Origin: Trichocoleus desertorum ATA4-8-CV12
Lineage (GTDB): Bacteria; Cyanobacteriota; Cyanobacteriia; FACHB-46
Length of the DNA: 64,000 bases
Reading direction: 5' to 3'
NCBI GenBank assembly: GCA_019358975.1
Contig: JAHHIL010000008.1
Coordinates: forward strand, 1 to 64,000
In this document: piece by piece, positions 24,552-58,999 of the stretch
How the letters are laid out: each line of letters opens with the position of its first letter
Numbering within the stretch: the first letter of the stretch is position 1
Made by a program: the position numbers and the translations under genes
Notes under the pieces: model-generated
The model's database searches: none
Told to the model about the DNA's origin: nothing
The model's input: only the letters and a program-made list of their open reading frames with translations

Positions 24552-24657
24552 GCACAGGTTAGTAACGAGTTCATAACGAGTTCGAGCCACGTTTCAGCAT
24601 GGCTAATTTTGCAACGCTGCTTTCTTTATTCATTGCCTGCTTCTCAGGAGCAACTGT

Positions 24658-25398: not shown

Positions 25399-25417
25399 CC
25401 TCAAGAGGGACTCAATC

Positions 25418-26359: not shown

Positions 26360-26465
26360 GCAACCGAAAATTCTATCGGAACTCCTGTTTATGTGGGAGG
26401 GGTGGCTGGGCTGCTCCTCCCACAAGCGTTTTGGCAGTTAACTGGTTGGCGATCGCAGACCTGGC

Positions 26466-27197: not shown

Positions 27198-27207
27198 AGG
27201 GCAACTA

Positions 27208-42561: not shown

Positions 42562-44532
42562 TCAGGCAAACATCCCGTCGATCATACCTTGATAGCGCTC
42601 CATCACAACGGGTCGCCGAATCTTCAAGGTTTGGGTCATCATGCCATTCTCAACCGAGAAGGGTTCCACAATCAGGCGGAATGGCCCCACCCGATCATCG
42701 GGGCGATAACCCGGTCGATTTTGCACCTCCCGGTTCAGTTCTTGGCGGAATAAATCTTGAATGCGTTTGTCCTCTAGGGCGATCGCTGTAGCTCCGGAAT
42801 TGGTGCTAGCAGGTTGATCAGGCAAGTTGAGAGAGAGATTTTGGTTTGTGACCCACTGCTGGAGAGCGTCTAAATTCGGCACGATCAGGGCACCGAGCGA
42901 TCGCTGGTCTTGCCCAACCATCATGATTTGATCGATGTAGGGGCTGCGAATGCAAGCATCTTCAATCGGTTGTGGCTCAATGTTCTCACCACTAGTCAAG
43001 ACAATTGTGTCTTTGGCCCGCCCAGTCAGCACCAAATCATTCTCATCCGTCACCCAGCCCAAGTCGCCGCTATCAAACCAACCTTCTGGGTCAATCGCTT
43101 TAGCGGTCGCTTGCGGGTTGTTGTAATACCCCTGCATCACTTGTCGCCCCCGAATCAACACCAGACCTCGCTTTCCGGCGGGTAAGGGTTGGCGAGTTTC
43201 TGGGTCTACAATGCGAATTTCTGTTCCTGGTATGGGTTGACCGGAAGCACCTTTGAGGTTGCGCCAAGGCCGACGCACATTGGTTACGGGAGATGTTTCT
43301 GTCAAGCCATAGCCCTGCAAAACGGTGACTCCGACAATCTCAAAGAAGTTGTCGAGGTGCTTGGCAAAAGAGCCGCCCCCACTGACCAAAAATTCAATTT
43401 TGCCGCCAGTTGCCTCCCGGACTTGCCGATAAACCAGGCGATCGCCCAAGGCATGAACCGGAGCCAGAGCGGCAGCTTTTGCGGTGGCAGCTAAGCGTTC
43501 AATTGCAGAGGGATGGGGATTTTCTAGACTTAAACCCTGCACAATGCGACGGGCAGCAAGATAGCGCTGACTGCTTGACAACAGAGAGTTAATTAGCCGT
43601 TGCTTACTCGCTGGCTGCTCCCGAAACTGCTTCTGCACCCCTTCATAAATCGACTCCCACAGGCGAGGGACTCCCACCATGTACTGGGGCTTGTACGTTT
43701 TTAGATCTTGCTTAACGTGACGGATACTGGTGTAGATCTGAGTGCAACCTTGAGCTAAAACAAAGTACTCAAAAGCTCGCTCGTAAGCATGCCAGCTAGG
43801 CAAAATGCTGAGCACAATATTACCGGGCTGGGGCGGCACCACGGCCCCTAGCATGGTGGCTTGATGCAACAAATTGCCATGACTAAGCATGGCTCCTTTT
43901 GGCCTGCCCGTCGTGCCGGATGTATAGATCAGGGTGGCTAGGGTTTCCCGATTTTGCTGAACAGGTTGCAACGAGTGATTGGCACCCAGTTCTAGTAATT
44001 GAGGAAAGTTAAGAATTTTGAGAGTTTCATCCGTGGGTGGCTCCTCGTCGGAAAGTAGCACCACGGTTCGGACTGCCAAGCCATCCAGACCAGAGCGTAA
44101 TTTCTCTAGAGTGGCTTGGTTCTCAACGACCAAGGCGGTGCTGCCACTGTCAGCCAGAATAAACAAAAGTTCTTCGCGATCTGCTTGAGAACTACGCACA
44201 GCATTGGCTGCTCCAGCCGTCATGATGCCTTGATCTGCCACAAACCAACGGGGACTGTTGTCCGAGATTAGGCCCACGCGATCGCCCACTTCCACCCCTA
44301 GTGCCTGCAACCCTGCGGCAAAGCGCTGCATCTGCTGATATACCTGTGCGTAAGTCAGTGATACTTCCGGTTTGGCATGGGGGTCTTTCAAGGCCACAAT
44401 TGAGCCAAATTTCTTAGCCACAATCGGCCAAATTGCTGGCAAAGACTCAACAGCTTGATAGTCCACTAAGCGCTTAAGGTTAGCGCGCTCTGGCTCAGTT
44501 AGATGGAGGCTAGGTGCATTAGGAGGGTTCAT
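42562..44532 (-). CDS. aas: Acyl-ACP/long-chain fatty-acid synthetase (Aas-like)
   Basis: This encodes 656 residues from the ATG at 44532. A TTG six codons earlier is less likely. The AMP-binding signature TLIYTSGTTGRPKGAMLSHGN, the motif QGYGLTETSP, DSGDLGWVTDENDLVL and the catalytic-lysine-region GENIEPQPIE are all present. The size, and the internal stretch around IVQGLSLENPHPSAIERL, match the cyanobacterial acyl-ACP synthetase that activates free fatty acids and recycles them to lipids. It probably sits at the membrane without a clear transmembrane helix. The neighbours on the same strand are ylqD and pdhC. Confidence 0.93.
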   Translation of the reverse strand: MNPPNAPSLHLTEPERANLKRLVDYQAVESLPAIWPIVAKKFGSIVALKDPHAKPEVSLTYAQVYQQMQRFAAGLQALGVEVGDRVGLISDNSPRWFVADQGIMTAGAANAVRSSQADREELLFILADSGSTALVVENQATLEKLRSGLDGLAVRTVVLLSDEEPPTDETLKILNFPQLLELGANHSLQPVQQNRETLATLIYTSGTTGRPKGAMLSHGNLLHQATMLGAVVPPQPGNIVLSILPSWHAYERAFEYFVLAQGCTQIYTSIRHVKQDLKTYKPQYMVGVPRLWESIYEGVQKQFREQPASKQRLINSLLSSSQRYLAARRIVQGLSLENPHPSAIERLAATAKAAALAPVHALGDRLVYRQVREATGGKIEFLVSGGGSFAKHLDNFFEIVGVTVLQGYGLTETSPVTNVRRPWRNLKGASGQPIPGTEIRIVDPETRQPLPAGKRGLVLIRGRQVMQGYYNNPQATAKAIDPEGWFDSGDLGWVTDENDLVLTGRAKDTIVLTSGENIEPQPIEDACIRSPYIDQIMMVGQDQRSLGALIVPNLDALQQWVTNQNLSLNLPDQPASTNSGATAIALEDKRIQDLFRQELNREVQNRPGYRPDDRVGPFRLIVEPFSVENGMMTQTLKIRRPVVMERYQGMIDGMFA

Positions 44533-44760
44533 AGTAGCTCTTGACCTCAAAACGATAGGAAATTAAGCATAAATAGCTGGCTTGGCATCAAATATATGAC
44601 AAAAGGATACGCCCAGTTTTTCTCAACACAACCTGCTATGGTTCCACGCTATCCTGACTAGAGTCTAAGAAAGACTGGTTTAGGACAGGATTCAATCTGT
44701 CCGTTCTTAACCAAAATTGACCAAACAAGCGAACTTGAATATAAACGAGGGAAGTGAATC

Positions 44761-45045
44761 ATGGCAAAAGCAGTTTGGAACAGTGCCGTCCTCGCCGAAA
44801 GTGACAATTGCGAAGTGGTCGAGAATAATTACTACTTCCCCCCCGATGCCATCAATCGCGAATTCTTTAAAGAAAGTTCAACTCACACTACCTGTCCTTG
44901 GAAAGGTGTGGCTAGCTACTACAACGTTGAGGTAGAGGGCCAAGTGAATAAAGACGCGGCTTGGTACTACCCGGAGGCGAAGCAAGCGGCCAAAAACATT
45001 GAGGGCTATGTTGCCTTTTGGCGCGGTGTCAAAGTCGAGGCGTAA
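44761..45045 (+). CDS. DUF427 protein
   Basis: This encodes 94 residues. The pattern AVWNSAVLAESDNCEVVENNYYFPPDAI and later HTTCPWKGVASYYNVEV is the DUF427 fold, a small beta barrel. The conserved CPWKG is retained. No firm function is known to me. It faces the GH3 gene tail to tail, and a terminator hairpin starting at 45058 closes it, overlapping the GH3 stop region on the other strand. Confidence 0.92.
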   Translation: MAKAVWNSAVLAESDNCEVVENNYYFPPDAINREFFKESSTHTTCPWKGVASYYNVEVEGQVNKDAAWYYPEAKQAAKNIEGYVAFWRGVKVEA

Positions 45046-45057: not shown

Positions 45058-45089
45058 GGTGGGTTATGGTCAGCCTAACCCACCTTTTT
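45058..45089 (+). terminator. Terminator of the DUF427 gene, overlapping the GH3 end
   Basis: GGTGGGTTA (45058-45066) pairs with TAACCCACC (45076-45084) over a 9-base loop. It is followed by TTTTT (45085-45089). The right arm and T run are the last codons of the GH3 gene on the other strand. On the minus strand there is no T run, so it does not clearly terminate the GH3 cluster. Confidence 0.8.
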
Positions 45090-46592
45090 CAGCATTGCGA
45101 CTGGCTTTGTCGCTAACACTTCATGCTTGATATCCCCCCATTTTTGGCCTGCTAGCAACTTCTGTTGCAGCACCAGTTCGGGCACTTCCGGCGACACCCA
45201 AACCTGAGCAGGGGCTAATTGTCCCAAAAGCCGAGCCTGTTGATAGTGGAGGGACTCGCTGAGAGCAGCCTCTAGTTGCTGAGCGATCGCTTCTCCTTCC
45301 CGATTAGCTTGATCTAGCAACAAGAGATAGTGGGGTTGGGGTTGAGTCACAGGAACTAAGGTTCTAAACGTAGTTGATCCCAAATTCAGGCGATCGATTA
45401 CCTGGGCAACAAAAGCGGCATGGAGTTTTTCTCCCACCAAATCGCTGGTCATCTGATCTCGGCCTAAGAATTCTAAACAAGGCGTATTTAGGTAGGTGTG
45501 AGTCATACGAACGCGATCGCCCATGCGATACCGATACAACCCGCCTTTTTGGGACACAATGATCGCGTACTCTGTAGCTGGCTCTAGCTCATGTAAGAGA
45601 CGAATCACTCCCATTGCATCTTCAAATTCAAAAAAGACTTCATTCAACAATGGGACAGATCCCTGAGCGGCAATCAGTGGCACTGTCATCGGAGCTTCAG
45701 TCGCCAACAGCCCCTTACCCTGCACCATCACACCGGGAAAGTGCGATCGCAAAACTTGAGCTTGGTCCGCAGCGTTGACACTATCCCAACAGGAAATTAG
45801 CTTCAGATGCGGCCAAATCTCTGTCCAAGTAGTTGTGGGATCTGAGATCAAGGCGAGGCGTTTGGGGGAGACGCGATCGCGCAATTGTTCGCAGAGCTTT
45901 TGGCGATGTTGCTGGATGTAGTTGAGATGCACCGTGAGAAAGCTAGGACTCCAAATAGAGATAATTTCTAGCTTTTCTGATTGCAATAATGCTAGACAAA
46001 GCTGCTCTTTAAAGGCTTCTGGATCGCGGAGACGACTTAAGCCCGCAGGAGCCACCAAAAAAGGCCGTAATATCCACTGCAACCAGCCGTCTAGATATTC
46101 AGCATCATCTGCTAGCCCAACCTTGATCCCTGCTTCTGTTTGTGTAGGTTGAGTGAGTTGCGGTGAGACACAGAAATAGACTTGTCCCGTGGAAAACTTA
46201 GGGCCATTTGTGATTAAGTCATGTGCCCACACCGAAAACATTTGACTAAAAGAGCGGCGCAGCGATCGCGTGTAGGGAATCCATTTTGCAGGGCCACGAC
46301 TCCCAGATGTTTTCTCATAAAAGAGGATAGGTTCTGAAGTTAAAAGTGCTGTTTTGCTCTGCTTTTGGCATTCGATCCACAGCTCCAAATCGGCATAATT
46401 CACAATTGGGATTTTCTGCCAATCTTTTAGCGATCGCACACCCAAAAAGCGACCGTATTCACTAGTAACTAAGCGTTGACAGATTTCCTTCTGAACCTTT
46501 GCTTGGGCTGCTTGCGGATCTTTTAGGGCTTGATGAAATCTGCGAGCTTCTGGGCTCAACAACTTGGCAAAGAATTGAATGATGGGACGCAT
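45075..46592 (-). CDS. GH3-type acyl-adenylate/amido synthetase
   Basis: This encodes 505 residues. The N-terminus MRPIIQFFAKLLSPEARRFH is helical. The adenylate-forming motif YEKTSGSRGPAKWIPYT (about 92-108) replaces the SSGTSxGxxK of plant GH3. A later YRYRMGDRVRMTHTY is the GH3-specific motif 2 region (about 355-370). GH3 enzymes activate a carboxylic acid with ATP and join it to an amino acid or other amine. Plant forms act on hormones. Bacterial homologues occur in biosynthetic clusters. It is the last gene of the 12-gene cluster, and its start lies 37 bases inside the glycosyltransferase gene. No other bacterial adenylating enzyme is in the cluster, so GH3 is the likely amide-bond maker. 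Confidence 0.88.
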   Translation of the reverse strand: MRPIIQFFAKLLSPEARRFHQALKDPQAAQAKVQKEICQRLVTSEYGRFLGVRSLKDWQKIPIVNYADLELWIECQKQSKTALLTSEPILFYEKTSGSRGPAKWIPYTRSLRRSFSQMFSVWAHDLITNGPKFSTGQVYFCVSPQLTQPTQTEAGIKVGLADDAEYLDGWLQWILRPFLVAPAGLSRLRDPEAFKEQLCLALLQSEKLEIISIWSPSFLTVHLNYIQQHRQKLCEQLRDRVSPKRLALISDPTTTWTEIWPHLKLISCWDSVNAADQAQVLRSHFPGVMVQGKGLLATEAPMTVPLIAAQGSVPLLNEVFFEFEDAMGVIRLLHELEPATEYAIIVSQKGGLYRYRMGDRVRMTHTYLNTPCLEFLGRDQMTSDLVGEKLHAAFVAQVIDRLNLGSTTFRTLVPVTQPQPHYLLLLDQANREGEAIAQQLEAALSESLHYQQARLLGQLAPAQVWVSPEVPELVLQQKLLAGQKWGDIKHEVLATKPVAMLKKVG

Positions 46593-47893
46593 AATTCAGT
46601 TTTAGGTTGAGAGAATTCCTGAGTCAGAACAGGTTTACCAGTCGCGATCGCCTGTTCCACAATATCCGCAGCCCGTATTACTCCTCCTGCTTGCGCGATC
46701 GCTTGCTGCAATCTGACTGCGTTCTGTTTGTATGTTTCACAGGTCAATACTTGTTGAACCGCAGTTCTCAATCGGGCGGCAGTTAAACGCGATTTAGGTA
46801 CGACTTCTCCAGCCCCCGTCCATTTGATCCGAGCGGCAACTCCTGGCTGATCATCTGTAACTGGGAGCGCCACCATCGGCACACCTGCTTGCAGAGATTC
46901 CAGGGCAGTATTCAAGCCTGCATGAGTGATGGCTAAGGTGGCACGTTGTAGTAGTTCTAGCTGAGGAGCATAACCCACGACAATCGGTTCACCAGGCAGA
47001 TCAGCAAGAATTTCTGGAGATAGCCCTTTCCCTAAGGCGATCACAAGTTGAGCATCCAATCCAGCACAAGCAGCAGCAATTTGCTCAAAAACCCGATGAG
47101 AGCGATTGCGTAAGGTTCCCATCGAAGCATAGATCAGAGGTTGACCCGTTAGCTTTTCAAACGGGAAGGAGACGTTTTCTCGGATTACAGTGTTGTGAAA
47201 CGGTCCAGTGAAATGAAAGCAAGGAGCAAGGCGCTGACGGGGATACTCAAACTCGGCGGGCTGATGGCTAATTTGAGCTAAGGGTGATAGAGCATCACTG
47301 GGATTTTTATATAGCGGTAGTCGCCACAGTTGGCGGTACTCATTCACAGGTTGATGTACCATCTGCCAATACTGCACCAACAGAGCATGACCAAAGCGAT
47401 TTCGTAGTCTCGCCCAAGGTGCTAGATCGTAAGGCCAATCCGCAAAGAAAGGAGGCACACTATCGTCGGGCTGCATCAAGAGCGCACTACAAAGAGAGAC
47501 AAAGGGCAGAGATAATCGTTCGGCGATCGCTCCGCCTGCAACAATCACATGGTCTACAAGCAAAGCTTCTACCCCTGCGGCTTTAATCGCAGCAGGAGCC
47601 TCTTGCAGAAACACGGTAGCCCAGACTTGTTGCCTAAATTTGAGGGTAGATTGAAAGGCTGCGAAACCTCGCAAAGTGCCTAGGTGATCATAGAATCCAC
47701 CCAAAATCCCTAAAGGAAATTCCTTTGTACCAATGGGCCAAAAGTTAATCTCCGCCGCTTTTGCCTTCGCTGCTGTATCAGGGATGTTAAACAAAGTGAC
47801 TTGATGCCCGCGCTGTTGCAGTTCTCGACCTAGAGCCAGCATGGGGTTGAGGTGCCCAGTTGTAGGAGGACATAAGAGACCAAAATGAGTCAT
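46556..47893 (-). CDS. GT1 glycosyltransferase (UGT/MGT-type, CrtX-like)
   Basis: This encodes 445 residues. The N-terminal acceptor half opens THFGLLCPPTTGHLNPML, as in macrolide, flavonoid and carotenoid glucosyltransferases. The donor-binding C-terminal half has QPLIYASMGTLRNRSH and THAGLNTALESLQAGVPMVA with DDQ, the UDP-sugar-binding signature. The acceptor is therefore a small hydrophobic alcohol or acid. It is probably cytosolic and membrane-associated. CrtX-like carotenoid glucosyltransferases belong to the same group, so a hydroxylated isoprenoid acceptor is plausible but not shown. The gene overlaps GH3 by 37 bases and starts 12 bases after the acyltransferase stop. Confidence 0.9.
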   Translation of the reverse strand: MTHFGLLCPPTTGHLNPMLALGRELQQRGHQVTLFNIPDTAAKAKAAEINFWPIGTKEFPLGILGGFYDHLGTLRGFAAFQSTLKFRQQVWATVFLQEAPAAIKAAGVEALLVDHVIVAGGAIAERLSLPFVSLCSALLMQPDDSVPPFFADWPYDLAPWARLRNRFGHALLVQYWQMVHQPVNEYRQLWRLPLYKNPSDALSPLAQISHQPAEFEYPRQRLAPCFHFTGPFHNTVIRENVSFPFEKLTGQPLIYASMGTLRNRSHRVFEQIAAACAGLDAQLVIALGKGLSPEILADLPGEPIVVGYAPQLELLQRATLAITHAGLNTALESLQAGVPMVALPVTDDQPGVAARIKWTGAGEVVPKSRLTAARLRTAVQQVLTCETYKQNAVRLQQAIAQAGGVIRAADIVEQAIATGKPVLTQEFSQPKTELCVPSFNSLPSC

Positions 47894-47905
47894 AAAATTT
47901 TAGGT

Positions 47906-48670
47906 TTACTCAAGTTTTGATGGTTGATGTTGCTGCTTGGCTAAAAGAGTTTGAACTTTGAGCTGATCAATTGTTTGGTTGGGATATACATGCGTAAAAA
48001 CGGGGATATATGTTTCTGCTTGAACCACAACTCCAGGCCCAATATGATTCCAAGCACCTAGAAACACCCCATCGCCAATTTTGATCTTCTTAACATACAG
48101 CATCAAATCTTGCCTGCGCGGCTTGATAATATGTGGATAAAGACCTACCTGATGACCAAAGATGACGCGATCGCCAATCTCTAGCAATCCGCGATCGGCA
48201 ATCTCTAGATGCGGAGTCCAATAAACACCTGTGCCCACCTTGGAACCCCACAGCCGCAACCATAAGGAGAATGCACCGGGAATCAAGCGCAGCACAGTCT
48301 CTAAAGCTGGAAAAGCAATATAGATCGCCTGAATCTGATGACTCCCCCACCAAGGAGAATACTCTTTCCCTTGCAGATAACTAATTCCTTCTAGAACAGG
48401 ATAAAAATGAGCATGAATCCGGTAAATTAGCAGCGGCAAGCCATACAGCGAAAACAACCACAATAAAACAGTCCAGATGCCAGGAGAGATACAGACCGAT
48501 AGAAATGAACTTCCTGCTAGCAACATCACCAGCACCGGAAAGCCAGCCAGAAAAGTACTGAGCCAAGTCATTCCCTGCCGTTCTACCTTCAATGATTGAC
48601 TTGGGCTTAACTCCCCCTTCCCTTGAAGGGAAGGGGGCTGGGGGGTTAGGTCTACTTCTGAAGTATCCAT
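47906..48670 (-). CDS. Hexapeptide-repeat (LbH) acyltransferase-like protein with repeat-derived N-terminus
   Basis: This encodes 254 residues. Two or three N-terminal membrane segments (about 37-60 and 63-85) precede a left-handed beta-helix of hexapeptides (about 132-235: LRLWGSKVGTGVYWTP, then IADRGLLEIGDRVIFGHQV, then VKKIKIGDGVFLGAWNHIGPG). Such domains acetylate or acylate sugars and lipids, although membrane-linked forms also occur in tailoring. The ATG at 48670 has GGAG ten bases upstream. The first ~25 residues (TPQPPSLQGKGELSPSQ) are encoded by the palindromic repeat next to it, so an internal ATG at 48571 could be the ancestral start. It is the ninth gene of the cluster. Confidence 0.8.
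   Translation of the reverse strand: MDTSEVDLTPQPPSLQGKGELSPSQSLKVERQGMTWLSTFLAGFPVLVMLLAGSSFLSVCISPGIWTVLLWLFSLYGLPLLIYRIHAHFYPVLEGISYLQGKEYSPWWGSHQIQAIYIAFPALETVLRLIPGAFSLWLRLWGSKVGTGVYWTPHLEIADRGLLEIGDRVIFGHQVGLYPHIIKPRRQDLMLYVKKIKIGDGVFLGAWNHIGPGVVVQAETYIPVFTHVYPNQTIDQLKVQTLLAKQQHQPSKLE
48613..48637. repeat. CCCCCTTCCC palindrome, a cyanobacterial dispersed repeat inside the acyltransferase start
   Basis: CCCCCTTCCCTT (48613-48624) pairs with AAGGGAAGGGGG (48626-48637). It is followed by CTGGGGGGTTAGG. The translated form (LTPQPPSLQGKGE) recurs, from memory, in many cyanobacterial gene starts. It lies in the first 60 bases of the coding sequence. Confidence 0.7.
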
Positions 48671-48692
48671 CGATCAACTTCTCCAGCCAACG

Positions 48693-49415
48693 TCAAAAAG
48701 GCCAAAATAGCTTTTGGGATAAGGTCAAATTTGTCTGTATCCCCAGGCTTTCCGGGGCGCGATCGCACTCATAATTAGTTCCGTGCAGTTTATCCCAAAC
48801 CTTCAGATTGGCTCCATAATTACAGCCCTGCGTTTGGGCATGGTGCCAAGCATGGTCTTGTGGCAAAACAAGCCAAGGGGAGATCCAGCGATAAATCCAA
48901 CTCTGAGGCGCGGGAGTGATCGCACTGTGCCGCCACAAATCTAGAATGGCAGTCAAAGTGACTCCCAAAACATATCCTGTGGGGTTCTGTAACAACAAGA
49001 GAAATAACGGATGAACCCACAGATACAGAATTAAAAAGCTGCTCCATAGGGTATTGCGGGAGGTGCCCAACACATCCATTTGAGTAACGGTGTGATGGAC
49101 TTGATGCCAAGGCCATAGATGGTGATGATGTAGCAGGCGATGATTCCAATAATAGAGATAGTCTACTAAAACGAAGCTGAGCAGGAATCCTAGCCCAGGA
49201 GAGAGCATCAAAACTCCTTTCCAGGTAGGTAACAGCCACTGATACAGTTGGTAAACCAACAACAGTTGTAGACCAGGGATCACAATTCCTTGAATCGATA
49301 ACCCTACCAGATCGAGTAGCCAATCTTCTCTATTCTTCTGCAAGAGGAGATTGGATTGGCGATCGCGAGTGACGGTCAACAACAGCAAAGTCATAAAAGC
49401 AGCAAAGATTGCCAT
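48693..49415 (-). CDS. Sterol-desaturase/fatty-acid-hydroxylase superfamily membrane enzyme
   Basis: This encodes 240 residues from the ATG at 49415, two bases after the stop of the Rieske gene; a GTG overlapping that stop is an alternative. Membrane helices flank eight histidines in the classic motifs: the WNHRLLHH region (about 90-97), HQVHH (104-108), the later DHAWHH region (188-192) and the tail NYGANLKVWDKLHGT. This ERG3/FA-hydroxylase-type diiron membrane fold hydroxylates or desaturates sterols, fatty acids, sphingolipids or carotenoids. It probably works with the cluster's oxygenases on a membrane-soluble substrate, but that is inference. The hydrophobicity fits an integral inner-membrane enzyme. 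Confidence 0.9.
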   Translation of the reverse strand: MAIFAAFMTLLLLTVTRDRQSNLLLQKNREDWLLDLVGLSIQGIVIPGLQLLLVYQLYQWLLPTWKGVLMLSPGLGFLLSFVLVDYLYYWNHRLLHHHHLWPWHQVHHTVTQMDVLGTSRNTLWSSFLILYLWVHPLFLLLLQNPTGYVLGVTLTAILDLWRHSAITPAPQSWIYRWISPWLVLPQDHAWHHAQTQGCNYGANLKVWDKLHGTNYECDRAPESLGIQTNLTLSQKLFWPF

Positions 49416-49417
49416 CA

Positions 49418-50440
49418 CTACACCCAGAATGTGACTTGAACCGATTGATCAGGCAGCAGACGGGGATCTTCGCCAACGGCAATGCGATCGCGAATGGACT
49501 CTACAAAGGTGTGAATTGTATCCGCTGGAGTGTTGGCAAATTTCTGCCCGTATTTCTCAATGACTTCTTGTTGCAAATCTAATGCTGCTACATCCTGACC
49601 AATGATGTGTTGGGCAGTCCAATAGATGAAAGGACGCGCCAATTGATTCCAAATGCCATAGTTGTAGGTGACATCCGTGTAGACCAAAGTAGAGTCTTCA
49701 GTTTCAGGGATGGATTGGCTGCTAATCCACAGTTGGCGATAGGCTCCCATGTCATACTCAACGCTAGTGACATTGGGCATGAAGAAATAATCGGTATGGC
49801 GAATCTTGCCGCCTTTGGGATTGAGAAACTTGGCGTACCAACCCAGATTCGTAGTTTCGTTGCGATATTCTGCCCGTACTGCTCCTTTTTGCCGCTCTAC
49901 CGTCATCTCTAGTTTTTGTCTGCGGGGCGTGCGAAAAACACCAGGATGCACAGAAGCCGTATGTGGAATATCAATAAAGTTCTCAGCGCAGTTCGTGACA
50001 TTATTGCGGAAGCGGTTAATTACTCGCACCGTTGTCCAACCTGGTTCCTGGTAATGAGGCATTGGAAAGGGCTCAAATTCTTCACTCGGCTTGTTGGTTA
50101 AGCGCACATAAATATAACCATCTTGCTCACAAGTCTCGTAATGCTTCACCCGTCGAGCTTGAAGCTGCTTAAAATCATCTCCTTCTGCTGGCACTGCTAC
50201 CAAAGTTCCATTGTTGTCGTACACCCAACCGTGATAAGGGCAATGCACCTGTCCTTGGCATACCTGACCACGAGATAACCGACTATTGCGGTGCATACAG
50301 CGATCGCGTAAAGCCACAGGTTCACCATTCTCATCTCGAAAAACTGCCAGCCATTCTCCCAATACAGTCCGAGATAGAACTTTATTGGGTCTTAGTTGCT
50401 CACTTTGAGCCACCACATACCAGAAATCCTCAAACTTCAT
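49418..50440 (-). CDS. Rieske non-heme iron oxygenase C (aromatic-ring-hydroxylating type)
   Basis: This encodes 340 residues from the ATG at 50440, which has GGAGG five bases upstream and overlaps the ferredoxin stop (ATGA). The Rieske cluster ligands are Cys48/His50 (DRCMHRNSRLS) and Cys67/His70 (CPYHGW). The catalytic iron motif ENFIDIPHTASVH supplies His160 and His165. The length and motif spacing fit a single-component-type oxygenase alpha subunit. It lies right after the ferredoxin, which is the expected electron donor. A GTG/TAG junction with the hydroxylase gene follows. Substrate unknown. Confidence 0.93.
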   Translation of the reverse strand: MKFEDFWYVVAQSEQLRPNKVLSRTVLGEWLAVFRDENGEPVALRDRCMHRNSRLSRGQVCQGQVHCPYHGWVYDNNGTLVAVPAEGDDFKQLQARRVKHYETCEQDGYIYVRLTNKPSEEFEPFPMPHYQEPGWTTVRVINRFRNNVTNCAENFIDIPHTASVHPGVFRTPRRQKLEMTVERQKGAVRAEYRNETTNLGWYAKFLNPKGGKIRHTDYFFMPNVTSVEYDMGAYRQLWISSQSIPETEDSTLVYTDVTYNYGIWNQLARPFIYWTAQHIIGQDVAALDLQQEVIEKYGQKFANTPADTIHTFVESIRDRIAVGEDPRLLPDQSVQVTFWV

Positions 50441-50736
50441 AGAACCTCCGTCAGAGGCGCGATCGTGATTTCTCCCATTACATCTAGCTGGCAAGCCAGT
50501 CTTGCTTGAGAATTTCCAGGTGCCAACATATCGAGAATTTCCTGTTCGGCTGTACTAGGCGGAGCAAGATCTCCTGTTACTGTGACTAAACAGGTTCCAC
50601 AAAGTCCTGTGCGACAACCAAACAGCACGGGAGAATTTTGTACTGTGAGCTGCTCTGCTAAAGGTTGGTGAGACTCTAGAGCCAGGGGCACATAATCTGA
50701 ATTTGGAAAGTGAACCACACAATAGGATGCGTTCAT
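50437..50736 (-). CDS. Plant-type 2Fe-2S ferredoxin
   Basis: This encodes 99 residues from the ATG at 50736. An earlier ATG at 50799 would translate part of the inverted-repeat element and is rejected. The cluster ligands are Cys41, Cys46 and Cys49 in GCRTGLCGTCL, and Cys82 in LACQL. This is the plant/adrenodoxin-like 2Fe-2S ferredoxin arrangement. It probably passes electrons to the Rieske oxygenases and diiron proteins beside it. No reductase gene is in the cluster, so it must use a general cellular ferredoxin reductase or photosystem I. Its stop overlaps the start of Rieske C. Confidence 0.92.
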   Translation of the reverse strand: MNASYCVVHFPNSDYVPLALESHQPLAEQLTVQNSPVLFGCRTGLCGTCLVTVTGDLAPPSTAEQEILDMLAPGNSQARLACQLDVMGEITIAPLTEVL

Positions 50737-50785
50737 GATAAAAAATTGTGGGTCAAATAAATATTGATAATTTGGGTTACGCCTG

Positions 50786-50855
50786 TAGGGGCGAAGCATT
50801 CGGCTAACAATCTTTGCATTTGTCCGAAGAATATCTACCGAATGCTTCGCCCCTA
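50786..50855. repeat. 18-bp perfect inverted repeat (MITE-like element) within the cluster
   Basis: TAGGGGCGAAGCATTCGG (50786-50803) is the reverse complement of CCGAATGCTTCGCCCCTA (50838-50855), with 34 bases between. The GGGGCGAAGCATTCGG half is a common cyanobacterial dispersed sequence. It lies in the 149-base gap between the second Rieske gene and the ferredoxin, the only long gap in the proximal part of the operon. Confidence 0.9.
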
Positions 50856-50885
50856 CCCCCTATAAGGAGATACACATGAAAATGC

Positions 50886-51935
50886 TTAGTCTTCGGATGT
50901 TTTCTGCCTAGGGAAACATTTTGACCAAAGGGAAGGTTTGAGTTGATTCACATAGTTCATATACTTAACCAGCGGCGCATCAATACTCAAAAGCACTTGT
51001 GGATTGAAACGGATGTTGTCATAGATCAGGCCATCCTCATCACGGAGAAAATAGTAGCTCAAGCGAGTGAGTAGCAAGAGCGATCGCGTCACTACCCAAC
51101 CCCAGATTCCTGATCTCTTCTCTGCCACATAGATGGGTTGAACGCGAGTTTTGTTAGGCGCGATCGGCGTATAGGCGTAAATCATATGTAGCGGCGGCAC
51201 CAAGCGCACGTTTTTCATCATGGTTAGCAAACCAATGCAGCCGTCAGCATAGCGCATGGAATATTCATACCTTTTGCCTAAAAATCTCTGAAGCACCGTT
51301 TCTCGCCACGTTTTACCAGGAATTTCTCCCCGCATGGTGAAATCAATCACGTTACCAGTGGCATTGCGATCGAGAGATAGCTCCATCTCAACATTGAGCT
51401 TGTGAACCGTTCGTAAATGTTGGGCATCGATGCCATTCATCATGCAGATGTGATGATGACAGTGACGCTCCAAAGGCTTGTCGGCCCAAACAATCAGGGA
51501 TTTGCCTTTTAACTCGTCAAACTCAACCACAGTTTCTGGAGCTTCGCTATCGGGATGGACCCAAATAAAGCCATATTTCTCATCGGTCGCATAAGCTCGG
51601 ATCTTGGCTCTAGTTGGAATCTGAACTTGGCAAGGAATATCTTGGCATTTACCAGTGCCATCAAAGGCCCAGTGATGAAAAAAGCAACGAATCACATTAC
51701 CATCAACTCGTCCTAGGCTTAAGTCAGTCCCTAAATGAGGACAATAGGCCTCTAAAGCCCGAACGTTACCATCTACGCCCCGATAAACAACAATTTTCTG
51801 ACCGCACAGATCGAACGATTTAGCTCGACCCGCTACTAAGTCACGACTCGCACAGATGATATACCATCCTTGAGCTACGACATCGCTATTGTTAAAAACA
51901 GGGGTTTTGAAATCACACAAAGTAGGAGATTGCAT
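50886..51935 (-). CDS. Rieske non-heme iron oxygenase B (KshA/DAF-36-like, paralogue of A)
   Basis: This encodes 349 residues. The Rieske ligands are Cys65/His67 (YCPHLGTDLS) and Cys84/His87 (RCFFHHWAF). The mononuclear iron motif reads NGIDAQHLRTVH, with Asp170, His173 and His178. The C-terminal half contains a hydrophobic segment (WVVTRSLLLLTRLSYYFL, about 283-300) that suggests membrane contact. The CPHLG...GKCQDIPC layout resembles Rieske oxygenases of the KshA/DAF-36 type, which act on steroids, but the family is broad. The gene follows the AurF-like gene by two bases and precedes the MITE-like repeat. Confidence 0.92.
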   Translation of the reverse strand: MQSPTLCDFKTPVFNNSDVVAQGWYIICASRDLVAGRAKSFDLCGQKIVVYRGVDGNVRALEAYCPHLGTDLSLGRVDGNVIRCFFHHWAFDGTGKCQDIPCQVQIPTRAKIRAYATDEKYGFIWVHPDSEAPETVVEFDELKGKSLIVWADKPLERHCHHHICMMNGIDAQHLRTVHKLNVEMELSLDRNATGNVIDFTMRGEIPGKTWRETVLQRFLGKRYEYSMRYADGCIGLLTMMKNVRLVPPLHMIYAYTPIAPNKTRVQPIYVAEKRSGIWGWVVTRSLLLLTRLSYYFLRDEDGLIYDNIRFNPQVLLSIDAPLVKYMNYVNQLKPSLWSKCFPRQKTSED

Positions 51936-51937
51936 AT

Positions 51938-53209
51938 TTAACTTACCTCCTCCAGTACCTCAGCTTGAGCTTGGGAAAGGGTGGGGATAAAAGCTGGCTG
52001 CGATCGCACCACAGAATCAACCTCCCCTGTAAGCAAAAATTTCTGCATCGCTCGTTGCTGCGTCTTTAAATATTTAGGGAGAGAATTCGCAGCCATCAAC
52101 GTCATCTCTCGATTGCTCGGCCAGACATAATCCAGCTTCTCGACATATACCTTGTAGGATTCCATCGCCTCCTGATGGGTCTGATAGCTGCGGTGCAAAC
52201 CTTCTGACTCTTGGGTAAAGCAAGCCACCATCATCTCTTTAGCTTCGCGATCGCTCATTCCAAATACAGGCGATCGCAACACTTGGTAGATGGCTGTATA
52301 TAGAGATGGGTCGTGCCAAAAGATGCCGTTAATAGCTGCTGAAAAATGATAGTGGTCACGCTGACAACCCCGTAACCCTAAGTTTGCGACAGTTTGTTCA
52401 AACTTTGTTGGCGGTTTCAAGCACTTCACGACATCATGAGACAAAATTGTGGAACTGTTGAAATGGAAACTCTCATCCAAAAAGTGATAGTAGGAAATTT
52501 GGCTGGGAATTGGTGCATTGTCTGGGTCAGGATGTTTTTGGTAGTAGGCACTGAGCTTGTGTTGCACCAGTTTGCCGTTCAATGTCCGCACTCCCCGAAC
52601 CGTGAAATATTGGCACGCTAAAAAGGTGTTATCTGAGGACAGCAAGCCAAAGCACTTGAGCTGAACCTGCTTCCACCAGCTTTTTAGGGCGTTGGTATCG
52701 GCAAAGATCATGGTCTCTGCAAACGGCCCTCGCATGGGATAGGTGAAAATCCGTTGGCCGAATAACGCGGCCTCTGTCTGACTAGCAATGGTTCTAAATG
52801 CCTGAATATGCGATCGCTCTTGGGCTGACTCTAGATCCAAGGTGTCACAGACCAATCGGAAATCTTCTTGAGCATAAAGACCCGCCGCGCTTGTCTGGTT
52901 AAAGAAAATCGTCGCGATCTCTGCTGAGACAATCTGCGAGTAATAAGCCACCCAATAGAGATGATTCAACACAATGCGTTGACTGAGGCTGGCTTGCTCC
53001 CATAAAGGAGTGCCGTAAAGTAGGGAAAACTCCTCTGGGTTCCAATATTCGTCTTTGCACTGGTCGTATTTAAAGGCAGCAGCAGCGACATCGATCGCGG
53101 CAGTTTGGTCTTGCTGCTGATTGCGCTGGTAGTTAATTTGCAGCTTGCGGTAAACCTTTTGGTTCTCTAGCAAGGTATTTGCTTGAGGTTCATCAAATAG
53201 ATTGTTCAT
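51938..53209 (-). CDS. AurF-like diiron oxygenase
   Basis: This encodes 423 residues from the ATG at 53209, which overlaps the ferritin-like gene stop (ATGA), with GGAG eight bases upstream. Another ATG at 53215 is too close to that site. Possible diiron ligands lie in SAEIATIFF (Glu), ESAQERSHIQAF (ExxxxxxH), DESFHFNSSTILSHDV (Glu/His) and ESEGLHRSYQTH. AurF-type enzymes oxidise amines to nitro groups or hydroxylate/cleave carbon skeletons, so the reaction here is open. The protein is soluble. The gene lies between the ferritin-like and Rieske B genes. Confidence 0.75.
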   Translation of the reverse strand: MNNLFDEPQANTLLENQKVYRKLQINYQRNQQQDQTAAIDVAAAAFKYDQCKDEYWNPEEFSLLYGTPLWEQASLSQRIVLNHLYWVAYYSQIVSAEIATIFFNQTSAAGLYAQEDFRLVCDTLDLESAQERSHIQAFRTIASQTEAALFGQRIFTYPMRGPFAETMIFADTNALKSWWKQVQLKCFGLLSSDNTFLACQYFTVRGVRTLNGKLVQHKLSAYYQKHPDPDNAPIPSQISYYHFLDESFHFNSSTILSHDVVKCLKPPTKFEQTVANLGLRGCQRDHYHFSAAINGIFWHDPSLYTAIYQVLRSPVFGMSDREAKEMMVACFTQESEGLHRSYQTHQEAMESYKVYVEKLDYVWPSNREMTLMAANSLPKYLKTQQRAMQKFLLTGEVDSVVRSQPAFIPTLSQAQAEVLEEVS

Positions 53210-54129
53210 ATACATTTCTCCGCTGGGAAAGGTTGAAAAGAACCCCGTTCCTCTAGTTCTTGGACAATGGCGTGAGCTGTAGCTTTCTGCATCAGGGAGC
53301 GTAAATAGCTCAACCGCGCCCCACTCTGGATCTCGGTTTCCAGCTCTTGTAAAACCTGGACTTTCTGCGATCGCGATAGATCCCCTTTTACCTGGGCGAT
53401 CGCATCTAAAACTCGCTGTGGCCCTACTTGCACCATGCGAAGAAACAGGGTCAACGCTTCTACAATGGCACTTTGGCTTTGCGTGGATAAAGGTATTTGT
53501 TTAAACAGCATTAAGCCAGAACCATGATGACGCGCTTCGGCTTGAAGAAACTGCTCAAATAATTGACCTAACTCCAAGTGGCAACAGCCTTTAGCTAGAC
53601 TGCGATAGTGGCTCAGCCCCCACCCTTCTAATACCACCTGGATGATGAACAGCAAGATGGCTTTGTCTTCTGTCTCTAGCAAATCAGCTAGAAACCGGAG
53701 GAACGGATCATCTGTACCAATGGGTGCTTCTGCAAAGAAACTCCGAATTTGAGCCAAGTGTGTCGCTTCCTCGGCGGCAAAGAGGCTGTAAAGCATCCGC
53801 TCCTCTAGTGTTTCCGCCAGCAAGAGCATCTTCGCCATGTAGCCCATGCCCGCTTTCTCTACAAAGTAAGCTTCCGCCAACAATCCTTGGCTAGCAATCT
53901 GCGCGATCGCCCGCTGCTCTCCTTCACTCGCATCTTGAAAGATTGCCACTCGTTCCAAGCCAAAATGGGTAGCGTCCCAGTAAGGCTGTGGTAACTGCGT
54001 AATTACTTTATAGGAATAGGAAGGCTGTCCTGCTGTAGGTATCCGATCGCCTAAAGCTGAAACCAAGACCCGATTGAGTTTATCTCCCTCAGCAATTAAA
54101 GGTAGATTAAATCCAGCAATGTTTTTCAT
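53206..54129 (-). CDS. Ferritin-like (diiron) protein
   Basis: This encodes 307 residues from the ATG at 54129, which overlaps the SDR stop (TGATG). The helical pattern has metal-type motifs LLAEAYFVEKAG, LEERMLYSLFAAEEATHLAQI, VVLEGWGLSHYRSLA and FLQAEARHHGSGLML, which fits a four-helix diiron protein with Glu/His ligands (EEATH and EARHH). This could be an oxygenase, a desaturase-like or hydrocarbon-forming type. It is not the aldehyde-deformylating oxygenase itself. The start and stop overlaps on both sides show tight translational coupling with the SDR and AurF-like genes. Confidence 0.75.
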   Translation of the reverse strand: MKNIAGFNLPLIAEGDKLNRVLVSALGDRIPTAGQPSYSYKVITQLPQPYWDATHFGLERVAIFQDASEGEQRAIAQIASQGLLAEAYFVEKAGMGYMAKMLLLAETLEERMLYSLFAAEEATHLAQIRSFFAEAPIGTDDPFLRFLADLLETEDKAILLFIIQVVLEGWGLSHYRSLAKGCCHLELGQLFEQFLQAEARHHGSGLMLFKQIPLSTQSQSAIVEALTLFLRMVQVGPQRVLDAIAQVKGDLSRSQKVQVLQELETEIQSGARLSYLRSLMQKATAHAIVQELEERGSFQPFPAEKCI

Positions 54130-54971
54130 CAAGCTGGCCTCCGTAAAAAGATCCGACGGTATAACAGATCAGATAAGGGCAGGCGAATCCAATCAGGTAC
54201 GAGCCGTTGAAAGAGATACACCAATGCTGCATCCCGTCCAACCCGCACTCGCAGCCGACGCGATCGCCCTTCTGCCAAAGCCACGGCTTGTCGAGCCACG
54301 CGGAGCGTATTATTGGGTGATTTGGCCCGTAATCGGTCTTTGAGCAAGTGGTAATTCTGCATCTGTAACTGATAAGGGGCTGAATCTCCTTCTGCCCAAC
54401 CCGGATCGTGACCAAACTTGGTATGGCTGGCTCCTGGCTCAATTAGCGCCACATGCACGCCATGCGGTTTTAGCTCGTAATACAGGCTCTCAGCCAACCC
54501 TTCCAACGCATGTTTACTGGCACAGTAAGCGGAGGTGAGTGGAAACCCTGTATAACCAAACGTAGAAGAGATAAAAATAATCGTGCCTTGCGCTGCCCGA
54601 ATTTCAGGTAATAAAGCTTGAGTCAGGAGCATGGGGCCGTAGAAATTGACCTCCATTTGTCGCCGCAGTTGAGCTTCAGTGAGATCTTCGAGCGGGCCGA
54701 AAAAGCGATCGCCTGCATTATTCACCAAGCAATCCAGATCTCCTTTTTGGCGCACATACTCCACAACTGCTTCTCGTTGGGCTGGATCTGTCACATCTAG
54801 ATCGAGAATCGTTAAGCGATCGCCATACTTCTCTAGCGGCTCTGCCAATAACTCTCGGCGTTGGTCAGCGTGACGCATCGTACTGATCACTTGCCAACCG
54901 CACCGGAGAAACTCGTCTACCATGCCGCGCCCAAACCCAGAGGAACAGCCTGTAATTAGCACTGTTTTCAT
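54129..54971 (-). CDS. Short-chain dehydrogenase/reductase (SDR)
   Basis: This encodes 280 residues from the ATG at 54971, with GGGAGG upstream, overlapping the Rieske A stop (ATGA). The cofactor motif is TGCSSGFGRG (about 8-17), the NNAG motif is VNNAGDRFFGPL, and the catalytic Ser plus Tyr-x-x-x-Lys are in FISSTFGYTGFPLTSAYCASKHAL. NADP(H) is more likely because the arginine-rich helix (TMRHADQRREL) follows beta-2. The C-terminal part has basic residues (GRSRRLRVRVGRDAAL) and a long hydrophobic end. Similar retinol/steroid-dehydrogenase-like SDRs oxidise alcohols on hydrophobic scaffolds. Here it probably oxidises or reduces an alcohol made by the oxygenases. Confidence 0.9.
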   Translation of the reverse strand: MKTVLITGCSSGFGRGMVDEFLRCGWQVISTMRHADQRRELLAEPLEKYGDRLTILDLDVTDPAQREAVVEYVRQKGDLDCLVNNAGDRFFGPLEDLTEAQLRRQMEVNFYGPMLLTQALLPEIRAAQGTIIFISSTFGYTGFPLTSAYCASKHALEGLAESLYYELKPHGVHVALIEPGASHTKFGHDPGWAEGDSAPYQLQMQNYHLLKDRLRAKSPNNTLRVARQAVALAEGRSRRLRVRVGRDAALVYLFQRLVPDWIRLPLSDLLYRRIFLRRPA

Positions 54972-56065
54972 ACGGCCTCCCAAACCCGCTCTCGCTCAGG
55001 TTCCACCCCAGAATTAATCTGTGATGGTTCTGTCACAGGTGCTTGTGCTAGTTCTAAAATTGGCTCCCACGTTCCCCAAGCTAGCGGTTGCTGTTGCTCT
55101 ACGTGCTGCATGAACTGGACTATCGATTGATCTGCTTTGGTTGGAGTTTTGAGGTTGAATTTAATCGTCTGAAAGATCTGAGTATCACCTTTAGCAAAGT
55201 AGTTACCAACTAATTGGGTGACGAACAAAATTAGCCGATTCAACAACCAACCCAGAAGCCTAGGCCGCTTTTTGGTGATTAGAACCGTTTGCCCTTCGGT
55301 TTTGCCACCTTCCAACAGCCGTAGAGTAAACATGATGTAGAAGTGAAGGAAATCCGGGCCGAGGGTGACTGTGCCCGTGCTGCCATACCAGTAGCACATG
55401 CTATAGGTGCCCTCATTTTTATAAAACGGTTGAATCAATCGCATTAGCCAGGATTCATTGCCGCCTCGTGTCGTGTTGCTGAAGGTAATGGCATTGCGAT
55501 GCAGCGTCTCGGTACGAAACACAATCTGAATCGGAAAGTTATGTACCGTGTTGAAATGCTGAGCATCGATCGCATTGATCAACAGGACATTAGGATGGCA
55601 GTTTTTGAAGAAATGCGACCCAAACATCACGTCACAGTCTGTATGTTCTAGCTCTGGAACAAAAGGGAGAGCTTGTTGAGGTGTTTCTCCCGCCCACACC
55701 CAAATTAAGCCGTAATGCTCGGCAGTGGGCCAACTGGAGAGCATGGCAGGAATGGCTTTGCCCAAACAAGGCACATCCACACAATGCCCGTGAGGATCAA
55801 ACTTCCAGTTATGGAAAAAACAGCGAATGCCTGTGCCATCCACCTTACCCTCTGCTAGATGCGCTCCCATGTGGGGACAGTAAGCATCCAGTACGACCAC
55901 TTGACCTGCTTGGTTGCGGTAGATCGCCAAATCTCGCCCCAACAGTTGCACAGGCTTGACTTGCCCTACCTTGAGCTCTCGCGATCGCAGTGCCCAATAC
56001 CACCCTCGAATAAAGCGATCGGGATGATTAAAAATTTCTGTCTGCATCCCAGCCTTGCTACTCAT
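54968..56065 (-). CDS. Rieske non-heme iron oxygenase A (KshA/DAF-36-like)
   Basis: This encodes 365 residues. The Rieske ligands are Cys63/His65 (YCPHMGAHLAEG) and Cys82/His85 (RCFFHNWKF). The iron motif is NAIDAQHFNTVH, with Asp167, His170 and His175. A hydrophobic stretch (WLLNRLILFVTQLVGNYF, about 278-295) is in the same position as in Rieske B, so the two are paralogues and likely membrane-associated. The CPHMGxxLAEGxVDGxxIRCFFH arrangement resembles KshA/DAF-36-like oxygenases, but the substrate cannot be taken from this. It is the second gene of the unit, four bases after the GNAT-like gene stop, and its stop overlaps the SDR start. Confidence 0.92.
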   Translation of the reverse strand: MSSKAGMQTEIFNHPDRFIRGWYWALRSRELKVGQVKPVQLLGRDLAIYRNQAGQVVVLDAYCPHMGAHLAEGKVDGTGIRCFFHNWKFDPHGHCVDVPCLGKAIPAMLSSWPTAEHYGLIWVWAGETPQQALPFVPELEHTDCDVMFGSHFFKNCHPNVLLINAIDAQHFNTVHNFPIQIVFRTETLHRNAITFSNTTRGGNESWLMRLIQPFYKNEGTYSMCYWYGSTGTVTLGPDFLHFYIMFTLRLLEGGKTEGQTVLITKKRPRLLGWLLNRLILFVTQLVGNYFAKGDTQIFQTIKFNLKTPTKADQSIVQFMQHVEQQQPLAWGTWEPILELAQAPVTEPSQINSGVEPERERVWEAV

Positions 56066-56069
56066 TTCG

Positions 56070-56795
56070 TTACACCAGGGCTGCAGGTTCTAGCGTGGCA
56101 AACCACAGCCGCCGACCTGCTGGCGTTAAGTTTGTTTCGGTAATCTCTGCCAAGCACACCAACTCATCTCCTTGATCGTGATATGGGTTCTGGGTGGCAA
56201 AAAAATCAATATGTAGATCTTTGCAGCGCTCTGCTGGAATCCCTTGAAGCTGACCCTTAAGCTGTTGCGGATAGGGGAAGCGGACAATTCCAGTGGTACC
56301 GTCATAACAGTCACCAAACTGTCGCTGTGCTAGAAATTGCATCAATCTCGCCATTGGGAGAGATGTAGGAGCATCATAGCGGGGGTAAAATTCTTGCCAA
56401 AACGTGGGCAAAAAGCGGTAGGTGCGATAGCCAGAGGAGATCAAGAGCCAATAAAGTTTGCCGCGAGGATATTTGCGCCGCAACTGATTGACAGTGGCGA
56501 TCCAAGCCCGCGAGAGCGCTGAACTAGACCAAGCACTAGGGTCCATAATCGTGTCGCCAGAGTAGACGACCGTTAACTCCTCATCCTCAAACTCAGTTTC
56601 GTACATCCGAATTGTCGAGAAACCCTTGAGGGTCTGCGATCGCTCATCTTTCAATAAAATCACCCAGTTCTTGGTATTCAAGTCAGCGTCAAAAACTGCT
56701 CGCTTGACTCCGGAAAAATGAGTGCTCAATAGGCCATACATAGCCTCGCGATCGGCAGTAGATAACTCCGCGATCGCCACAAGGTGACTCTTCAT
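56070..56795 (-). CDS. GNAT-like hypothetical protein, first gene of the cluster
   Basis: This encodes 241 residues. The fold pattern resembles GNAT acetyltransferases: AELSTADREAMYGLLSTHF, then LKGFSTIRMYE and TVVYSGDTIMDPSAW, followed by LLISSGYRTYRFLP. No clear acetyl-CoA-binding R/QxxGxG/A loop is visible, so the activity could be lost or different. The protein is hydrophilic and cytosolic. It precedes Rieske A by four bases and follows a 345-base gap that should hold the main cluster promoter. I do not know a characterised homologue. Confidence 0.72.
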   Translation of the reverse strand: MKSHLVAIAELSTADREAMYGLLSTHFSGVKRAVFDADLNTKNWVILLKDERSQTLKGFSTIRMYETEFEDEELTVVYSGDTIMDPSAWSSSALSRAWIATVNQLRRKYPRGKLYWLLISSGYRTYRFLPTFWQEFYPRYDAPTSLPMARLMQFLAQRQFGDCYDGTTGIVRFPYPQQLKGQLQGIPAERCKDLHIDFFATQNPYHDQGDELVCLAEITETNLTPAGRRLWFATLEPAALV

Positions 56796-58120: not shown

Positions 58121-58858
58121 TCAGCCATTTAACCAACGCCAGCACTTGAGGTGACAGCCTGATCCTGCGATCGCGATCGCACCTGCATAGTTAGGTGCAG
58201 GGCTGAGGTGCTGCAAAGTCCAGTTATGGGCGTTTTCCCAGGTTCCCCTGACTTCTCGTAAAGCCGCAGGTTCACCAGGGGCAAAAGCCACATCAAACTG
58301 ATCGAGTGGAATCGACAACCCTTGCCCCAAAGCTTTGATATAGGCTTCTTTACGAGTCCAGGCATTGAAGAATGCTTCAGGCTTGAGGGCGTCAGGCAGC
58401 GATCGCAAGATATTTCGCTCTGAAACTGAAAAAACGGATTTGGCTACCTGTTCAAAAGGAAAATCTGTGCGGATGTATTCGAGGTCAATGCCTAGTTCGC
58501 GATCGCTCGACACCCCCAACAGAGCCAAACCCTTGGAGTGAGACAAGTTGAAATGTAGTGATGTAGCAGTGCCTAACCGAGGTTTGCCATAAGCGTTATA
58601 GGTAAAACGTAGCTGAGCAGGCCTTTGATCGAGGTAGCGACCCAAAATCAATCGCAGTAAACCTCGCGCCACAATAAAATGCTGCCTATCCTTGGGAAAA
58701 TAAAATTTTGCTGCTCGCTCTTGTTCGTCACTGGTTAAGGTTGCATGGAACTGCTCAATTAACGTCGGGTCTTGATCGAGCGCTGCACACCAGACATGCA
58801 CTTCATTCTTGGCTAGCTCCAAGTTTGTGGGGGGTGACTCCCAAACTGTACTGCTCAC
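58121..58858 (-). CDS. Sfp/HetI-type 4'-phosphopantetheinyl transferase
   Basis: This encodes 245 residues. The motifs are NLSHSKGLALLGVS, then LGIDLEYIRTDFPFE with metal-binding Asp/Glu, and FNAWTRKEAYIKALGQGL with the catalytic Glu and Lys. Sfp-type enzymes load carrier proteins of fatty acid, polyketide or peptide synthases with the phosphopantetheine arm. In cyanobacteria the same enzyme serves several synthases (HetI-like). No carrier protein lies in this window. It lies 59 bases upstream of the nadK start on the same strand. Confidence 0.93.
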   Translation of the reverse strand: MSSTVWESPPTNLELAKNEVHVWCAALDQDPTLIEQFHATLTSDEQERAAKFYFPKDRQHFIVARGLLRLILGRYLDQRPAQLRFTYNAYGKPRLGTATSLHFNLSHSKGLALLGVSSDRELGIDLEYIRTDFPFEQVAKSVFSVSERNILRSLPDALKPEAFFNAWTRKEAYIKALGQGLSIPLDQFDVAFAPGEPAALREVRGTWENAHNWTLQHLSPAPNYAGAIAIAGSGCHLKCWRWLNG

Positions 58859-58898
58859 GCTTAGATTTTTCCAGCCGCTAGGCTTTCTGCACGAATCA

Positions 58899-58965
58899 AG
58901 GCCCCCCTAGCCCCCAACTCTGGGGGGAACTTTGAGAGCTTCTCCAAAATTGGGGGTAGGAGGAA
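58899..58965. repeat. CCCCCTAGCCCCC/TTGGGGGTAGG dispersed repeat
   Basis: CCCCCCTAGCCCCCAA (58901-58916) is matched by TTGGGGGTAGGAGG (58949-58962) in inverted orientation. An inner CCCCAACTCTGGGG hairpin lies between them. This resembles the CCCCCTAACCCCC-type repeat common in cyanobacteria. It lies between the thioesterase and transferase genes. Confidence 0.65.
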
Positions 58966-58999
58966 GCGATAGAGCATTCAGGCAGAATATTTATTGTTT

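Follow-up and report, generated by a model that had tools for sequence, protein, structure and literature searches.

What does a cyanobacterium oxidise and conjugate with a run of tailoring genes that contains no scaffold synthase? This question is raised by a 64,000-nucleotide stretch of Trichocoleus desertorum ATA4-8-CV12 (contig JAHHIL010000008.1, positions 1 to 64,000; hereafter the window), in which twelve contiguous open reading frames (ORFs) on the minus strand form one operon-like run at 45075-56795. A preliminary description of this DNA had placed twelve genes there and had proposed a single oxidative and conjugating pathway independent of any assembly-line synthase, a proposal with which both the gene coordinates and the conserved order of the core agree. 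Judged by gene content and sequence similarity, the run is a complete member of the catalogued orphan clusters termed Rieske-containing CylC clusters, comprising a ten-gene core together with a local short-chain dehydrogenase/reductase (SDR) and a local GT1 glycosyltransferase.

Gene content and conservation of the core

A previous survey found Rieske-containing clusters to be the largest category of CylC clusters (n=36), to which its main text assigns no known product (Eusebio 2021; PMC8406957). As described there, members have one CylC homologue, 2-4 Rieske proteins, acyltransferases, no carrier protein and, in most cases, a gene of the sterol-desaturase family; non-cyanobacterial members were noted, and fatty-acid-type substrates were proposed. 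All of the category features recur in the window cluster, which has a single CylC homologue, three Rieske proteins, a PF04116 gene and no neighbouring carrier protein or FAAL. Moreover, its CylC-like protein falls in the Rieske/PriA clade, sharing 57-77% identity with homologues from cyanobacterial Rieske clusters, the Synechocystis block included, and about 27-35% in most alignments with FAAL/PKS-linked homologues (PKS, polyketide synthase). The preliminary description knew of no described cyanobacterial cluster with this gene set; in view of the published category, that statement has to be withdrawn.

The ten core genes encode, in order, a GNAT-fold protein, Rieske oxygenase A, a ferritin-like diiron protein, the CylC-like protein, Rieske oxygenase B, a ferredoxin, Rieske oxygenase C, a membrane fatty-acid hydroxylase, a hexapeptide-repeat protein and a GH3 enzyme. 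This order, on whose recurrence in other genomes the preliminary description had staked its proposal, is kept nearly identical in 18 named loci that a genome scan returned and in 12 further genome regions, with contig ends cutting some loci and with Rieske B and GH3 sometimes shifted. Among the carriers are Oscillatoria, Laspinema, Phormidium, Nostoc and Synechocystis (as a four-gene block) and, outside the photosynthetic cyanobacteria, metagenome-assembled genomes (MAGs) of a gammaproteobacterium and of Oligoflexus and Halobacteriovoraceae (Bdellovibrionota), as well as Vampirovibrionia-like genomes from another class of the cyanobacterial phylum. A tree of CylC-like proteins places the window sequence inside the clade of cyanobacteria and groups the other-class genomes with Bdellovibrionota (with weak support at that fork), which suggests some horizontal transfer.

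Across 194 genomes of the cyanobacterial phylum, taken as a fixed sample, strong matches to the CylC-like protein (E<=1e-154), Rieske C (<=1e-118) and GH3 (<=1e-86) were found in exactly the same 13 genomes, and the hexapeptide gene in 12 of these 13 and in one other. The 13 carriers span eight family labels, and many non-carriers belong to the same families. This co-occurrence is not mere linkage, because the genes are dispersed, hundreds of kb apart, in two Synechocystis-like genomes (in one of them, G076, at about 1.93, 1.38 and 0.98 Mb). In each of the core families examined, the residues that bind metals and cofactors vary little or not at all. These comparisons show a ten-gene core that is conserved, is catalytically intact and has been inherited as a unit across several phyla. 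As to the Synechocystis genes, Sll0254, at one time called a Rieske lycopene cyclase, was considered as the Rieske C orthologue and dropped, since in the literature it is a carotenoid enzyme resembling CrtU; its sequence was not compared. A literature search with the gene names sll0263-sll0266, the presumed designations of the Synechocystis block, found nothing.

The products of the core genes differ in how closely they can be assigned. The first gene of the operon encodes the GNAT-fold protein (56070..56795; alignment of 12 sequences), which has no Pfam match; its AlphaFold model (pLDDT 90) matches GNAT acetyltransferases in Foldseek (E 3e-6, TM about 0.4), and since this likeness of fold is partial, its predicted chemistry is the least certain of the set. 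Rieske A (54968..56065; PF00355, 1.7e-23) has the Rieske CxH/CxxH motif in 27/28 orthologues and DxxHxxxxH in 28/28, and its closest solved relative is 3-ketosteroid 9alpha-hydroxylase (about 1e-25). The ferritin-like diiron protein (53206..54132; 308 residues), likewise without a Pfam match, is assigned by fold and ligand conservation: the top 50 structure matches of its model (pLDDT 80) are mostly ferritin-like diiron proteins, the best with an E of only 0.02, and 27/27 orthologues retain all six ligands (E/ExxH/E/ExxH) of a 4-Glu/2-His diiron site. All ligands are invariant in Rieske B (50886..51935; PF00355, 9.5e-27; 23/23) and in Rieske C (49418..50494, with a likely ATG start at 50440; PF00355, 3.9e-25, and VanA_C; 25/25), as are the four cluster cysteines of the plant-type [2Fe-2S] ferredoxin (Fer2; 50437..50799; PF00111, 1.5e-7; 24/24). 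The membrane protein of the fatty-acid hydroxylase/sterol-desaturase superfamily (48693..49418; PF04116, 9.6e-25) has histidine-box residues that are invariant or nearly so among 24 orthologues. For the hexapeptide-repeat acyltransferase-like protein (47906..48670), the PF00132 score of 25.8 bits lies below the cut-off of 27, while the GH3-type acyl-acid amido synthetase encoded by the last gene (45075..46592) exceeds the cut-offs for PF03321 (6e-35), GH3_M and GH3_C and has a nucleotide-binding TSGSxG...K motif that is invariant in 22/22 orthologues. Searches of the PDB with the CylC-like, ferritin-like and hexapeptide proteins returned no significant homologue.

The CylC-family protein and its glutamine

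The remaining core member, encoded by a gene found once in the whole genome (51938..53215, with a likely ATG start at 53209), had been called an AurF-like oxygenase. It bears QERSH and HFLDESFH, which correspond to QExxH and HxxDExxH, the defining motifs of CylC/NocO dimetal halogenases, and by these motifs it is a CylC-family protein; for the other eleven products, Pfam matches or fold and model bore out the identities first given. We rejected an AurF N-oxygenase identity on two grounds: the score against Pfam AurF (PF11583) is 25.4 bits, under the curated cut-off of 29.6, and the position of AurF Asp135 is occupied by Gln132, within QExxH.

Nine active-site residues are essential in NocO, where the E252A variant loses chlorination activity while retaining iron, and Gln at the E252 position has been reported in a small subset of CylC homologues (PMC12101540). 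Eight of the nine are invariant in 31/31 Rieske-type orthologues. The ninth, NocO E252, is Gln in 31/31 Rieske-type CylC homologues and Glu in 12/12 other CylC-family sequences, with the correspondence to NocO taken from alignment with FAAL/PKS-linked homologues and from published motif spacing, not from structure. Among the 12 comparison sequences are FAAL/ACP/PKS-linked proteins (ACP, acyl carrier protein) encoded on plasmids of Planktothrix and Gloeothece, and a Stanieria protein linked to P450/sulfotransferase genes. Within these alignments, Gln at the E252 position marks the Rieske clade of the CylC family, and the substitution may alter the chemistry of its enzymes. Chlorination by the CylC-like enzyme is a serious candidate to us, if one that we would rate slightly below the alternatives of hydroxylation or desaturation.

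A second CylC-family gene, 33% identical to that of the window and with Glu at the diagnostic position, was observed in a gene group at about 9486-17902 of a Synechocystis-like locus (L055; G076:C1:2822001-2842000). The group also has genes for a DevABC-type exporter, for a KASIII-like synthase and for a GT1 that shares 48% identity with the GT1 of the window, and it may be a separate orphan glycolipid cluster.

Substrate and proposed pathway

Fatty-acyl chains are universal in bacteria. A native membrane-lipid or fatty-acyl substrate is favoured here by circumstantial evidence, and we lean towards a fatty acyl because fatty acyl chains are the substrates of the characterised CylC-family halogenases that PMC12101540 names, because a fatty-acid desaturase gene adjoins the four-gene block in a Synechocystis-like genome, and because an Mpo1-like gene (2-hydroxy-fatty-acid dioxygenase family) is linked to Rieske B in Nostocales. 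We hypothesize, with a little more confidence than doubt, that this orphan pathway oxidises, and perhaps chlorinates, a fatty-acyl chain and then conjugates it through the GH3 enzyme and the acyltransferases. A fatty acid or fatty-acyl derivative would be drawn from primary metabolism, so that no scaffold synthase would be required. The cluster ferredoxin would supply electrons to the iron enzymes, and the membrane hydroxylase, the ferritin-like and CylC-family diiron proteins and the three Rieske oxygenases would functionalise unactivated C-H bonds of the chain, with the CylC-type step being either a chlorination or a hydroxylation/desaturation. GH3 would adenylate the carboxylate and couple the acyl group to an amine, probably an amino acid, to give an amide, and the hexapeptide and GNAT-fold proteins might acylate O or N groups. 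Substrate, product and any halogenation are inferred here.

Several observations weigh against this pathway. The likenesses of the Rieske proteins give no pointer to fatty acyls, being about equally weak to 3-ketosteroid hydroxylase, to SxtT/SxtDIOX and to demethylases, and no member of the Rieske clade has an assigned substrate, product or assayed activity. Halogenation is not to be assumed, because the Glu whose place is invariably taken by Gln is one at which an Ala substitution abolishes chlorination by NocO. The GH3 enzyme scores 30.2 bits against OlsH (NCBIfam NF052613), where the cut-off is 620. Lastly, the naive chance of the observed co-occurrence, 1/C(194,13) = 1.7e-20, ignores kinship and so overstates its significance. 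A broader extension of the fatty-acyl hypothesis is one that we put forward tentatively and regard as doubtful: that Rieske-clade CylC enzymes, with their invariant Gln, might be a separate reactivity class acting on freestanding, non-carrier-bound lipids, and that the ten-gene pathway might make undescribed oxidised, possibly chlorinated N-acyl lipids across phyla.

The pathway might instead yield a membrane lipid that contains an amino acid, with GH3 forming an N-acyl amino acid in the manner of planctomycete OlsH, the hexapeptide protein O-acylating that product and the iron enzymes hydroxylating the chains. OlsH has been shown to use free fatty acid and ATP in making N-acyl ornithine, a finding that counts for such an aminolipid (PMC12493201), and an N-acyl-amino-acid hydrolase-like amidohydrolase gene is linked to the cluster in Nostocales and in the gammaproteobacterial locus L015. 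The best NCBIfam matches also point this way, to OlsH for GH3 and to the ornithine-lipid hydroxylase OlsE for the membrane hydroxylase; both are far under cut-off, however, and the likeness is at superfamily level only. Moreover, five to six oxidative enzymes far exceed the number that aminolipids are known to need, and a patchy spread (13/194 genomes) fits specialised metabolism better than a bulk membrane lipid. We therefore regard an aminolipid pathway as rather unlikely, if still worth bearing in mind.

The preliminary description had itself favoured an isoprenoid, sterol-like or hopanoid substrate, in line with the matches of Rieske A and B to 3-ketosteroid 9alpha-hydroxylase, with the membership of sterol desaturases in the FA_hydroxylase superfamily and with weak matches of all three Rieske proteins to the SdmA 4beta-methylsterol monooxygenase family. 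The SdmA scores are 72-80 bits and do not reach the cut-off of 600. The genome that contains the window (99.98% complete) has no squalene-hopene cyclase, and matches above the cut-off for this enzyme occur in only 7/19 cluster bearers, on which grounds a hopanoid or sterol substrate was rejected. Squalene/phytoene synthase is absent from genomes G004, G018 and G194; since the first two carry the CylC-like, Rieske C, ferredoxin, hydroxylase and GH3 genes yet lack this synthase, a carotenoid or squalene (C30/C40) substrate is disfavoured. Because these enzymes are missing from bearers, a hopanoid, sterol or carotenoid is unlikely to be what the pathway acts on if all carriers use one substrate, and we consider oxidation and conjugation of any such isoprenoid very improbable. 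A chance or loosely assembled neighbourhood, to which the absence of GT1 and SDR from other cyanobacterial clusters might point, has a negligible probability and is already contradicted for the ten core genes by translational coupling, by an order kept in several phyla and by co-occurrence even when dispersed.

Accessory genes, surroundings and known systems

In addition to the core, the run contains two genes that were rejected as core members and that by their distribution are local accessories. GT1 (46556..47893; UDPGT, 2.1e-23) is present in 35/194 genomes, whether or not these have the cluster, and the homologous clusters all lack it. It may add a sugar in strain ATA4-8-CV12 only, and glycosylation, originally proposed as a pathway step, is set aside since GT1 is not associated with the core. 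The SDR (54129..54983; PF00106, 1.3e-47; likely ATG start at 54971) is without an orthologue (E<=1e-50) in any of the other 193 genomes of the phylum and is present in the clusters L015, L017, L018 and L058 (gammaproteobacterial, Oligoflexus and Halobacteriovoraceae), a distribution that either its loss from other cyanobacteria or its regain would explain. Amidohydrolase and Mpo1-like genes adjoin Rieske B or the cluster edge in Nostocales and in the gammaproteobacterium, where they form a fusion beside the Rieske cluster genes (L015:18436-20133). A long frame near 612579 of the cyanobacterial contig G060:C23 is probably the same fusion, whose domain pair occurs as separate genes in Nostocales.

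The twelve-gene run is translationally coupled, as had been described: ATGA overlaps join Rieske A to SDR, ferritin-like to CylC-like and ferredoxin to Rieske C, the SDR/ferritin-like and Rieske C/hydroxylase junctions read TGATG and TAGTG, respectively, which makes five such junctions, and the GT1 and GH3 genes overlap by 37 bp. As first reported, the window ORFs showed no PKS, non-ribosomal peptide synthetase (NRPS) or terpene synthase, and Pfam profiles of the operon proteins revealed no ACP or PKS. An Sfp-type phosphopantetheinyl transferase and a type II thioesterase lie directly upstream (58121-59782), outside the conserved set; despite their presence, no PKS or NRPS was seen on the contig out to +76.9 kb. 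Downstream, an oppositely oriented DUF427 gene (44761-45045) separates the operon from a long-chain acyl-CoA-synthetase-like gene on the same strand as the operon (42562-44550; AMP-binding, 1e-85), also outside the conserved set. Promoter and terminator scans gave hits no more numerous than in shuffled sequence, and structured RNA and tRNA scans gave none. Elsewhere in the window, inspection by eye identified a row of putative genes for a PEP-anchor-like protein, two ferritin-like-domain proteins and an extracytoplasmic function (ECF) sigma/anti-sigma-like pair (23817-27804), and a putative orange carotenoid protein-like product (29201-30160).

Beyond what had been catalogued, the analysis contributes a strict co-occurrence of core genes, a Gln that defines the clade, evidence that speaks against isoprenoid substrates and a division of the genes into core and accessory. 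A search of the main text of PMC8406957 found no mention of GH3, the hexapeptide gene or a fixed ten-gene core, and its supplementary figures may already depict some of what is described here of the core genes. Of the CylC architectures in that survey, the Rieske-containing one is the most abundant, yet the main text gives it no product. A core kept across phyla, even when scattered in Synechocystis-like genomes, can guide gene deletion, for which a genetically tractable genus is usable, and the Gln/Glu difference offers a one-residue handle on halogenation versus oxygenation by the Rieske clade. If unactivated lipid chains are indeed modified without a carrier protein, these enzymes would be useful catalysts of C-H functionalisation.

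Compared with known systems, the CylC-family protein shares with the p-aminobenzoate N-oxygenase AurF the ferritin-like diiron superfamily and a weak Pfam match, and differs in having Gln, the CylC-type state, at the Asp135 position. It shares eight of nine active-site residues with the CylC/NocO dimetal halogenases (PMC12101540), those of QExxH and HxxDExxH among them, while differing in Gln for E252, in its identity of roughly 27-35% in most comparisons and in a cluster without a FAAL, ACP or PKS partner. The OlsH/OlsI ornithine-lipid pathway (PMC12493201) likewise has a GH3-type enzyme in a lipid-related role and no assembly line; in contrast, the window cluster is without the alpha/beta-hydrolase OlsI, is far below the OlsH cut-off and has a large oxidative set. 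Among the Rieske-containing clusters, as the main text of PMC8406957 describes them, the window member is distinguished by its added SDR and GT1. The PriA-containing biosynthetic gene clusters of Synechocystis described there share the GNAT-Rieske A-ferritin-CylC block, and whereas their other functions lie elsewhere in the genome, those of the window are brought together in one operon.

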